Below are positions 1,305 to 54,449 of a stretch of 57,253 nucleotides of DNA, one piece after another. The notes beneath the pieces are model-generated. The model saw nothing but the letters and a program-made list of their open reading frames with translations. It was not told where the DNA came from and searched no databases. A program made the translations under genes and the position numbers. The DNA lies in the NCBI GenBank assembly GCA_020047915.1, contig JAIFND010000079.1:1-57253 (forward strand), read 5' to 3'. How positions within the stretch are numbered: the first letter of the stretch is position 1; each line of letters starts with the position of its first letter. This DNA comes from a bacterium. GTDB taxonomy: Bacteria > Planctomycetota > UBA11346.

Positions 1305-4300
1305 GTGAGGAACCGCCATCTCGTCCCCACTCTCGCCATGCTGGCCTTGGCCGGCATGTTGCCCGCCGAAGACGGTGTTGCTCCGGTCACAACCCTGGCT
1401 GTTGACGACACGCTCCTCACCCCTTTTTCGGACGGTGGTTCGGTCCCCGATGTCCTGGCCAGCGATGCCATTCCCCCAGACACGGCCATTGATCTATCGA
1501 CGCTATTCGGCCGATTTTACGCCTACTCCACCTCGACCTGGGTGAATTTCTCTGGTCGTCTGACAACGGCTGGCATCGCTGTCATTGCCGCACATAGCGA
1601 TGGGGCCGGGGATTGGGAGTACTACGATGGCACCTCTTGGCTTACCCTTCCTGGGGCGATCAGTGATGCAAACGCGTTCCTGATCCCACTTGGGAATAGC
1701 GAACCTTCGTATTTGCTCCGCTTCCACGCGTATGCCTCGTCCGGCGATGCCCGGCCGACGCTTTCCTTCCGCGCCTGGGATGGGACGAGCGGCACACCAT
1801 TGTCCATGGAGGACACTACCAATTCCGACCTCTTCGCCCCGCAAACCTACGGCGGATCACCGACGGCTTTTTCGGCCGAGACGCGTACTTTGACGGTGCA
1901 GGTCGTGGCGGAAAATGACAGCCCCGCACTGGTAAGCGACCCCGCGGCTCCGGAGATCATCGCCTTCATCCCCAAGACGGTGGGCGACCTCTTGGCCACT
2001 ACCGCCCCATTCACGGATCCTGATCCCGCGACGAATCTGGGAATCGCCATTGATAAATTCGACACGGTCGATGCTGGTTGGGAATACAGCCAGGATGGCG
2101 GAACAAACTGGTCGTCTCTGGCAACTGTCCAACCCGGGGCCGAAAGTGGCACGGTCTTTGTTCTGGGACCAGACGACCAACTCCGCTACACGGGAAGCGG
2201 CTCTGGATCGGAGCTGCTTACCCTCCACGCCTGGGATCAGACCATGGGGGCCCCCGGCGATACATTCGTCACGGACGGCAGCATCTCGGGCTCGTCGATT
2301 GGCGTAGTTGTCAATGCCAATAATCAGCCGGTGTTGGTATCCCCGTCCTCGCCCCCGTTCCCTCCATTGACCATCGATGTGCGCCGGGGAACGGATTATG
2401 AGCTGTCGCTGTCGGCTAGCGATATCGACACTGACGACCAGCTGACCTGGAGCGCAGCCTCGACCTCCTATAGTTCCGGTGGCACGGTTACCGTGGGGGA
2501 CAGTAGTGCGGCTGAAACCACGGCGACCTATGCCGCGCCAACCGACCCCACTGTCACCAGTGATGAGATCGAAGTCACGATTACCGATCTGGCCGGCAAC
2601 CAGGCCACCGCCCTCGTAACTGTGAATATCATCGAAAATGCCTCGCCGACCTGGACCGCCCCTGGCCCTTTCAATCTCGACGAGGTTACGGTCGGAGAGG
2701 AGGATCCATCCGGGACCTATTTGTCGGACCTGCTGATCAACGCGATCGACGACCTCGACGGCAATCCGGATGGCATTGCGATCATCGGCGCCACCACCAC
2801 CGGCTTTGGCACGTGGCAGATCGGGAATGATGTCGAAGGCATCTATTACAGCGACCTCGGCGAAGTCAGTGACAATGCGGCGATCCTCCTGGATTCCTTG
2901 GATTCCCGCCTGATCCGCTACCTGCCTGGCAGCAGCAATGAGACGGTGACCCTGACCATCCGGGCCTGGGATCAGACGAGCAACGACACCGATCTGACGA
3001 ATCCGGTAGACGGCGGCCATGTGTCGCTGGAAACCCGCACGATCACGGTCGTGGTGGCCGGCGCCAATGCCGCCCCGGAGATCACCAGCCATCCGACCTC
3101 GCAGAGCGTCATCACTGGCCGACCGCTGACCCTGACCTTTGCGGGCATGGATCCGGATGGCGACGCGTTGACCTGGACCCTGAGCGGCGACATCGCCGGC
3201 ACGGCCTACTCCGACGAAATCGCTGGGACCTCTCCGGAATTCTCGCTGACCGCCGGCAATCCCGGAAGCGGCACGCTCAACGTGACGGTGAGCGACGGTA
3301 CTGACAACGCGTCGATCGACATAAACGTCGAGGTGCTGGCCAACAACGCCCCGGCCATCATCAGCGCGGCCCCTGGCACCATCGCCATCTCCGGTCAGCC
3401 GTGGGAGGCCCTGGTGACAGCGACGGATGCCGATGCGGGCGATCTCGCCCTGCTCGCCGCCGGTGGAGTGCCGACCTCGTGGATGACGCTCAGCCAGCTG
3501 GGCGCTGGACGCTGGAAGATCCACGGCACGCCGGGCAACGGCAATGTGGACACCACGACCTCTTTCTTTTTCACGGTCTCCGACCCGTCGTCGGCCCAGG
3601 CTTCAGTCAGCTTCTCGGTGACGGTCCTCGACAGCAGCGTGCAGCCGGTGTCCGGCCCGCAGGTCCCGGTCTCGACCCCCGGTGCGGTGACCTACGCCTC
3701 GATCCATCCCGGCAGCAGCGCCAACCTGACCTCGTTGTCGGCGGCGCTGGCCCTGTCCGGACGCCAGCGCGCGCGCGGCTTCTGGTGGTCGCCGGGCGGC
3801 GCGGCCTTCGGCGAACTGCCGGCTTCGCCGGCCGATCCGGCCTCGGCCGGCATCTTCGTCGCCTCGCTCGATCCGCTGAATGTCACCTATGACGCGCCGA
3901 TCCACGCCGCCCCCTATGCGATCACCCTGCCGGCGAATTCGTGGAGCTTCATCGGCATCCCGCCGATCCAGCTCGATGCTGTCAGCAGCACGGCGACGAC
4001 CAGCCACGCGTGGGATGACTTTCGACTGGAGACGACGGCTGGCGTCCCGCTTGACGAGACTACCGTGCTGAGCGTCCTGGCCGGCACCAGCAACCTGGCC
4101 GACATCGAACCGTGGTCGTGGGATGGCACCGCCTACAACCGGGTTGAGACCCTGCAGACCGGCACCGCCTACTGGGTGCGCAATCGCAGCAGCACGACAT
4201 ATCGTCTGGTGCGCGCCACCAGCGGCGCATCTGGCACCTTCGGAACCATGGGTGTGCAGCCGTCGCCTGCCCCGGCCCCCATGGCGGTCAACCTGGCTCA

Positions 4301-10114: not shown

Positions 10115-10125
10115 CGTGTGGTGAG

Positions 10126-10270
10126 CCTAAACGCAGCATTCCACACAGAGAACCAGAGCTACCAGAGGTCAAGACAAGGATTTGCGCGATTTCTTGGGTT
10201 CACCCGGACGGTGCATATTTCCCCTCTGGTCACTCTGGTGCTCTGTGTGACCGCTATCGCCGGGTTTAGG
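10126..10270. repeat. CCTAAAC-bounded hairpin element, copy A
   Basis: A 145-bp element with termini CCTAAAC and GTTTAGG. Inside are 27-nt inverted arms at 10142-10168 and 10223-10249 (24 of 27 positions pair) made of CACAGAG/ACCAGAG units. The 54-nt loop (10169-10222) is itself conserved and contains a small CGGGT/ACCCG hairpin. Near-identical copies lie at 15997-16145 and 54285-54449. It sits between two convergent stops. Confidence 0.9.
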
Positions 10271-10283
10271 GTGAGTCGTCATG

Positions 10284-15858: not shown

Positions 15859-15988
15859 ATCCACAGGGAGGACCAGAGCCACCAGAGGTCAAGCCAAGGC
15901 TTTGCTTCTTCTTTCGCGCCCGGCCAACGAGAGCGATGCACCCTGCAACCCCATTCCCTCTCTGATCCCTCTGGTCCTCTGTGTGAAA
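15859..15988. repeat. Partial/divergent ACCAGAG hairpin element
   Basis: Left arm about 15861-15890 (CACAGGGAGGACCAGAGCC and following), right arm about 15968-15988 (CTCTGGTCCTCTGTGTGAA). Arms match the CACAGAG/ACCAGAG family but the loop is unrelated to copies A-C and the CCTAAAC ends are missing. It lies 8 bp upstream of full copy B. Together the two fill the 327-bp gap, where no gene is evident. Confidence 0.75.
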
Positions 15989-15996
15989 TACTTGAA

Positions 15997-16145
15997 CCTA
16001 AACGCAGCATTTCACACAGAGAACCAGAGCCACCAGAGGTCAAGACAAGGATTTGCGCAATTTCTCGGGTTCACCCGGACGGTGCATGTCCATTTCCCCT
16101 CTGGTCACTCTGGTGCTCTGTGTGACCCCTATCGCCGGGTTTAGG
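15997..16145. repeat. CCTAAAC-bounded hairpin element, copy B
   Basis: A 149-bp copy with the same CCTAAAC/GTTTAGG termini. Arms at 16013-16039 and 16098-16124 pair over 25 of 27 positions. The loop matches copy A except for a 4-nt difference before the right arm. It lies between the anti-sigma gene and the convergent ppc gene. Confidence 0.9.
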
Positions 16146-16166
16146 TTGAATGAAGCCTGACCGCGA

Positions 16167-26981: not shown

Positions 26982-28421
26982 ATGGCTACCGACCACACCC
27001 GCTACGACTCGCCCCTCTGCTCGCGCTATGCCTCGAAGACCATGCAGGCCTTGTGGGGCGACCAGCGCAAGTTCTCGACCTGGCGCAAGCTGTGGGTCGA
27101 GCTGGCGCGCGCCGAGATGCACCTCGGCCTGCCGATCAGCGAACTGCAGGTCGCCGAACTGGCCGCGCACACCGACGACATCGACTGGGAGATGGCGGCG
27201 CGCGAGGAGAAGAAGCGGCGTCATGACGTGATGGCCCACGTCCACACCTACGGCGCCGCCTGCCCGATCGCCGCCCCGATCATCCACCTCGGCGCGACCA
27301 GCTGCTACGTCACCGACAATACCGACCTGATCCTGATGCGCGAAGGGCTGGAACTGCTCGCCCGCGCCCTGGCGCGCGTGATCGAGCGCCTCGCCGCCTT
27401 CGCCCACCTGCAGCGCTCGGTCCCCACCCTCGGCTACACCCACTTCCAGGCCGCCCAGCTGACCACGGTGGGCAAGCGCGCCTGCCTGTGGATCCAGGAT
27501 CTGCTGATCGACCTGAAGAACATCGAGCGCGCGCGTGACGACCTGCGCTTCCGCGGGGTCAAGGGCACCACCGGCACGCAGGCTAGCTTCCTCACCCTGT
27601 TCCACGGCGACCACGCCAAGGTCGAGGAGTTGGACCGCAAGGTGACGGCCGCCTTCCATTTTCCCTCCGCCTTCCTGGTCACCGGCCAGACCTACACCCG
27701 CAAGGTCGATTCGCAGGTCGTGCTGGCGCTGTCCAACCTTGGCGCCACTGCGCACCGCATCGGCACCGACCTGCGCCTGCTCGCCCACCTCAAGGAAGTC
27801 GAAGAACCCTTCGAGGCCGACCAGATCGGTTCGTCGGCGATGGCTTACAAGCGCAACCCGATGCGTGCCGAACGCGCGTGTTCGCTCGGACGGCACCTGA
27901 TGGGCCTGGCCGCCGACGCGATGAACACGCACGCGGTGCAGTGGATGGAGCGCACCTTGGACGACAGCGCGGTGCGCCGCATCGCCATCCCCGAGGCCTT
28001 CCTCGCCAGTGACGCAGTGCTTGGCATCCTGCAGAACGTATGCGAGGGCCTGGTCGTCCATCCCGGCATGATCCGCCGCCACATCGACGCCGAGCTGCCC
28101 TTCATGGCGACCGAGAACATCATCATGGCGATGGTCGAGGCGGGCGGCAATCGGCAGGAGGTGCACGAGAAGATCCGCGTCCTGTCGCACCAGGCGGCGG
28201 CGGTGGTCAAGGGCGAGGGCAAGGACAACGACCTGATCCCGCGTATCCGCCACGACGCCTTCTTCGCGCCGATCCACGCCGACCTCGACGAACTGCTCGA
28301 CCCCGCGACCTTCATCGGCCGCGCCCCCGAGCAGGTCGACCGCTTCCTCGCCGAGGAGGTCAAGCCGGCGATCGCGCGCTACACCGAGCACCTGGGCGGC
28401 ACCTCGCAGCTGCATGTGTGA
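26982..28421 (+). CDS. purB: Adenylosuccinate lyase
   Basis: A 479-residue fumarase/aspartase-superfamily enzyme that removes fumarate from SAICAR and from adenylosuccinate in purine synthesis; cytoplasmic tetramer. The family signature [15 protein letters not shown] is at about 283-297, with Pro replaced by Ala after Met as in the eukaryote-like PurB branch. Also seen are [25 protein letters not shown] and TVGKRACLW. Its length and start ([12 protein letters not shown]) fit that branch. The ATG at 26982 follows the GGCGGAA array; no clear Shine-Dalgarno is visible. Confidence 0.96.
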
Positions 28422-28434
28422 ACTGGGACGATGT

Positions 28435-28512
28435 GTTCACACAGAGCACCAGAGCCACCAGAGTTACGAACAGAAATTATGCCGCATAGCACTCTGGTCC
28501 TCTGTGTGTACA
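28435..28512. repeat. Short ACCAGAG hairpin element
   Basis: Left arm 28438-28463 (CACACAGAGCACCAGAG and on), right arm 28493-28509 (CTCTGGTCCTCTGTGTG), loop of 29 nt. Same arm family as copies A-C but short and with a different loop. The right arm lies within the coding region of the next small gene. Confidence 0.8.
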
Positions 28513-54284: not shown

Positions 54285-54449
54285 CCTTAACGCAGCATTT
54301 CACACGGAGAACCAGAGCCACCAGAGGTCAAGACAAGGATTTGCGCGATTTCTCCGGTTCACCCGGACGGTGCATGTCGATGTACCATGCAAAGCATTTC
54401 CCCTCTGGTCACTCAGATGCTCAGTGTGACCCCTATCGCCGAGTTGAGG
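54285..54449. repeat. CCTAAAC-type hairpin element, copy C
   Basis: A 165-bp diverged copy: termini CCTTAAC and GTTGAGG, arms at 54301-54327 and 54402-54428 with more mismatches than in A and B. The loop is the same as in copy B plus a block of about 16 bp (around TACCATGCAAAGC). It lies between the chemoreceptor and the convergent xthA gene, and fills most of that 283-bp gap. Confidence 0.88.

Follow-up and report, generated by a model that had tools for sequence, protein, structure and literature searches.

A recently spread, gene-less MITE with a 5-bp N-T-S-A-N target rule and a probable IS1380-type mobilising partner

RESULTS

A three-copy hairpin repeat is a recently spread MITE

We found that a hairpin repeat present three times in the window (the whole stretch of DNA analysed, 57,253 bp) is a recently spread, gene-less MITE, and its identity as a transposon is firmly supported. 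Its ends are very probably served in trans by an IS1380-family DDE transposase using a 5-bp N-T-S-A-N target. The earlier note had placed the copies at 10126-10270, 15997-16145 and 54285-54449, and these positions are correct. It had also placed all three between convergent genes, which held in a codon-usage gene call. The features are as follows.

10121..10125, no strand: target-site duplication GTGAG, left of copy 1
10126..10270, + strand: MITE copy 1, 145 bp, loop-deleted form, ends CCTAAAC...GTTTAGG
10142..10168, + strand: left inner arm of copy 1, CACACAGAGAACCAGAGCTACCAGAGG
10223..10249, + strand: right inner arm of copy 1, CCTCTGGTCACTCTGGTGCTCTGTGTG
10271..10275, no strand: target-site duplication GTGAG, right of copy 1
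15860..15983, + strand: older diverged relative, sharing the hairpin core only (~75% identity) and lacking CCTAAAC ends, immediately upstream of copy 2
15992..15996, no strand: target-site duplication TTGAA, left of copy 2
15997..16145, + strand: MITE copy 2, 149 bp, loop-deleted form
16146..16150, no strand: target-site duplication TTGAA, right of copy 2
28438..28508, + strand: short hairpin with the same arm motifs, without CCTAAAC ends, downstream of a stop codon at 28421
54285..54449, + strand: MITE copy 3, 165 bp, full-length form, decayed ends CCTTAAC/GTTGAGG, target duplication lost
Flanking genes (codon-usage gene call): 10114+/10339- for copy 1, 15839+/16167- for copy 2, 54219+/54503- for copy 3

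The 7-bp inverted termini described in the note are exact in copies 1 and 2 (CCTAAAC/GTTTAGG), but those of copy 3 have decayed. Between the two ends of the MITE, the CCTAAAC terminal inverted repeats agree exactly, and over 17 nt the match is 11 positions. The 27-nt inner arms were confirmed, with complementarity of about 24/27. The loop is near-identical among the three copies, but copies 1 and 2 have lost an internal part that the 165-bp form retains. Of the two explanations that the note gave for this conservation, selection or recent spread, the second mainly applies, as the copies are young.

The genome that contains the window is a 3.97-Mb draft of 248 contigs, about 80% complete. A blastn search of this genome with copy 1 returned 48 matches (best non-self E value, 1e-65), far beyond chance. 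In a genome-wide covariance search about 35 loci scored strongly, with diverged hairpins trailing below them. Around 30 near-full-length members carry recognisable CCTAAAC-type ends or clearly belong to that subfamily, and there are fragments and diverged relatives besides. The element is multicopy and without coding capacity, and it is typically 130 to 166 bp long; shorter copies are internal deletions of the full-length 165-bp form. A 100-bp copy on contig C24 lacks a whole arm, yet it is flanked by a perfect duplication, ATTAT. Most copies diverge from the consensus by 1 to 5%, and therefore the spread is recent. The CCTAAAC form was not found in the whole genomes of 97 relatives, where arm fragments alone occur, in one congener. 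The exact CCTAAAC-plus-arm pattern had three matches in 84,980 species genomes, all unrelated, and the CCTAAAC form had a single, unrelated match in IMG/VR and none in a plasmid collection.

Exact 5-bp target duplications, nesting and stacking

We observed a perfect 5-bp direct repeat around 15 of the 24 copies with definable ends and a one-mismatch repeat around 4 more; none was longer than 5 bp. When the flanks were randomly re-paired 20,000 times, the mean number of perfect repeats was 1.0 and the maximum was 7. The duplicated targets follow the consensus N-T-S-A-N, with T at position 2 in 23/24, G or C at position 3 in 20/24 and A at position 4 in 22/24. Copies also insert into and beside one another. 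On contig C168 one copy is nested within another, with (G/A)TCAA on both sides. Contig C193 carries a stack of two copies (TTGAG-MITE-TTGAG-MITE-GTGAG), and on C122 a copy is stacked on the duplication of an older hairpin, giving three CTGAT repeats (CTGAT-MITE-CTGAT-older hairpin-CTGAT). Such stacking is expected because each insertion regenerates the target. The note had offered two readings of the repeat: a MITE/REP-like element mobilised in trans, or a family of small structured RNAs. A MITE mobilised in trans is favoured by the many copies, the exact 5-bp duplications, the nesting and the presence in a relative of an IS1380-type element with matching ends and the same target rule.

Other sequences adjoin or interrupt some copies. 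The right arm of one MITE on C193 (L010, G000:C193, 1105-1755) contains a 651-nt group II intron at the site CTCTG^TGTGACC. The intron matches RF02005 and RF00029, is present once in the genome and has no long reading frame that we could see. Among group II introns, those of class IIC insert at terminator or attC stem-loops (PMC4424553). MITE fragments also adjoin a different palindromic repeat, which has GATATCTC-type motifs, in L026 (G000:C2), near the copy at 3820-3961, and in L058 (G000:C91), near its end.

Insertions at stop codons and between convergent genes

We analysed 46 elements, young and older together. In 18 of them exactly one base separates the element from the stop codon of the neighbouring gene, so that this codon is the TGA or TAA within the duplication. 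In a reconstruction of empty sites that lets only harmless insertions survive, the target rule gave an expectation of 9.5 stop-codon sites, and 12 were observed (P = 0.09). Active targeting of stop codons beyond the target rule was thus not established, and the placement is largely that expected from the rule together with selection against gene damage. A copy on C167 (L021, 2480-2655) lies among consecutive genes of one strand, where a stop and a start codon overlap as ATGA. Its duplication is ATGAT, and the upstream gene still ends in ...GCATGA while the downstream gene still starts with ATGATT. The Chunjie MITE of Geobacter uraniireducens reportedly also lies within an operon without disturbing it. 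The family we describe illustrates cleanly how a short target rule can turn stop codons and ATGA overlaps into places where insertion is safe: the duplication gives back both reading frames.

Young copies are concentrated between convergent genes: such genes flank 20 of the 27 gaps that hold a young copy but 13 of the 155 other gaps, an excess that is only approximate in size because the intergenic background is small and comes from the same loci. This concentration would suit an element that serves convergent genes as a bidirectional terminator or an mRNA 3'-end hairpin and owes its spread or retention to that role. Such a reading is compatible with a MITE, and we consider it unlikely. The stable fold also fits it (RNA fold z-scores of -6.2 for copy 1 and -3.5 for copy 3), and in the 18 youngest copies the arms are less variable than the loop and outer parts (1.1% versus ~2.9%, P = 0.002). 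However, among singletons alone in the youngest copies the arms are no different (P = 0.37), and selection on the arms was rejected as not robust to singletons. An intrinsic terminator is also opposed by the lack of a T-tract after the stem and by the lack of a terminator match at copies 1 and 2. Compensatory changes are absent as well: none of the 22 inner-stem pairs is changed on both sides, and overall 1 of 33 pairs is, a level that 100 of 500 shuffles reached. The arm substitutions that do occur break pairs. The small hairpin that the note saw within the loop does fold but has no meaningful support from covariation. Finally, no function is needed to account for the positions: survival bias, acting against copies that land in operons or promoters, suffices. 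A role for the element as a transcript end is possible.

An IS1380-type element in a relative shares the ends and the target

A complete IS of 1,710 bp is present in G019, a genome of the same taxonomic family and another genus (L176:2340-4049). It has the ends CCTAAACACCGCGTTAG and CCTAGACGCCGCGTTAG and is flanked by a perfect duplication, ATCAT/ATCAT. Further copies of this IS are preceded by TTGAT, ATCAT, TTGAT and ATGAT, all of which fit NTSAN. Its transposase scored 84 bits against PF13701, above the cut-off, and 166 bits against NF033539 (IS1380), just under the cut-off of 180. The right end of the MITE, CCTAAACCCGGCGATAG, matches the end of this IS at 14/17 positions, and the left end, CCTAAACGCAGC, matches more weakly, at 12/17. 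The MITE and the IS have in common both the 5-bp length of the duplication and the NTSAN target. Related elements occur elsewhere. A transposase fragment with 70% identity adjoins the end CCTAAACGTCTCAATAG in the genome G016, and plasmid CP087967 of Polaromonas sp. P1-6 (L182, 1427-3056) carries an IS1380-type IS whose transposase is 39% identical to that of G019, with the unannotated ends CCTATTTTCGGCAGTTAGC and CCTAGAAACGGCAGTTAGC and a 5-bp NTNAN duplication, TTAAA. In the IS1380 family, 5-bp duplications have been described for IS1247 (PMC3281130) and for ISEcp1 (PMC2887853).

Profile and protein searches of the MITE's own assembly (~80% complete) found no IS1380-type transposase, and a candidate partner is taken from another genus for this reason. 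ISs are often missing from drafts of such completeness. The interior of the MITE has nothing visible in common with the G019 IS, and therefore descent of the MITE from that IS by internal deletion is unsupported. A weak transposase match in the congener G003 lies in sequence that looks like a regulator gene and was taken as chance.

A MITE mobilised by a transposase of some family other than IS1380 is improbable. It would agree with the lack of an IS1380-type gene in the own assembly. The sole PF01609 transposase found there (L129, G000:C21:4289-4834) belongs to an IS with unrelated ends, GTGGACTTTCGCACTT, and was rejected as the partner. However, the end sequence, the duplication length and the NTSAN target all fit the IS1380-type element of the relative. 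As the mobilising system of the MITE, an IS1380-type IS is well supported by these sequence comparisons, short of proof.

An older hairpin layer and the REP question

We counted the arm motif CACAGAGNACCAGAG in 98 genomes: the MITE's own genome has 89 occurrences, the congener G002 has 32, G017 has 3, and two others have one each. The arm hairpins of G002 lack CCTAAAC ends, and several, read by eye, lie about 10 to 13 bp past a stop codon. One G002 locus (L076, 1502-1929) holds three tandem 152-bp arm-hairpin units, each with CTGAG, which is the stop-codon context of the preceding gene. Some older hairpins of the own genome keep NTSAN duplications (TTCAG on C245 and CTGAT on C122). The older hairpins may be decayed copies of this transposon, or they may form a separate hairpin repeat.

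REP units are palindromes of 20 to 40 bp without a target duplication. Classical REP/BIME elements moved by a RAYT (Y1) transposase would share with this family the intergenic position of the palindromes at gene 3' ends, and the arm motifs do occur in other arrangements and in tandem arrays in a sister species. However, the exact 5-bp duplications contradict this reading for the CCTAAAC form, the 165-bp element is far longer than a REP unit, and the outer inverted ends match an IS1380-type IS; we therefore hold it to be very improbable. Given these duplications, the note's term "REP-like" does not hold in the strict RAYT sense. The note's remaining reading, a family of independent structured small RNAs, is scarcely credible: the loop is conserved and the fold is strong, but this reading is unsupported because the inner arms lack compensatory change, the exact target duplications and nesting also stand against it, and an Rfam search of the window gave no match.

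DISCUSSION

A model for the mobile element

We propose that the outer ends of the MITE (CCTAAACGCAGC on the left and CCTAAACCCGGCGATAG on the right) would be recognised in trans by an IS1380-family DDE transposase. The transposase would join the element to a staggered 5-bp N-T-S-A-N target, leaving a 5-bp duplication on each side. With a target core of TGA or its complement TCA, in-frame stop codons would be natural sites. Insertions at gene ends would survive selection because the duplication leaves the stop codon intact and, at an ATGA overlap, the next start codon as well. The inner 27-nt arms may derive from the older hairpin repeat of the genus and have been carried along by the transposable ends. 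ISEcp1 moves adjacent DNA by means of an alternative right end (PMC2887853), and by analogy a similar alternative end offers a possible route for the capture of a host hairpin. Three parts of this model are inferences: that an IS1380-type element moves the MITE, how its ends acquired the hairpin, and that most positions reflect survival bias and not active targeting.

A further idea, which we regard as doubtful, is that a transposase with an N-TGA/TCA-N rule made a mobile gene-end module out of a 3'-end hairpin found throughout the genus. If it were true, the module would install the same strong hairpin behind genes that remain undamaged and so reshape transcript ends between convergent genes.

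Comparison with known systems

The MITE shares its 5-bp target duplication with the ISs of the IS1380 family (IS1247, ISEcp1 and the G019 IS), to which the PF13701 DDE transposase belongs. The copies of the G019 IS have the ends CCTAAAC...GCGTTAG and the NTSAN target. Unlike these ISs, the MITE is gene-less and its interior is unrelated, and the G019 IS comes from another genus of the family. In a non-exhaustive literature search of titles and the beginnings of abstracts, we found no earlier report of a MITE linked to an IS1380-type element.

In two known pairs a short gene-less element likewise agrees in its ends and duplication with an IS that is resident or related: MITEAba12 with ISAba12 (PMC6382973) and RUP with IS630-Spn1 (PMC2229807). 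Both involve other transposase families, with a 9-bp duplication for ISAba12 and a TA target for IS630-Spn1. Unlike in these pairs, the partner of our MITE was not found in the same genome, a draft that is about 80% complete. ERIC, Correia/NEMIS and YPAL are likewise intergenic, hairpin-forming mobile repeats of 100 to 170 bp (PMC2229807). However, the ends of ERIC and Correia/NEMIS carry TA where the MITE has CC...GG, and the duplications of YPAL vary in length, whereas those of the MITE are exactly 5-bp NTSAN. The Tn3-derived miniature elements, TIMEs, are also non-autonomous with 5-bp duplications, but their ends are ~40-bp Tn3-type repeats, which the MITE does not have (PMC4133298). The element is a young MITE family of an ordinary kind, with an instructive target rule.
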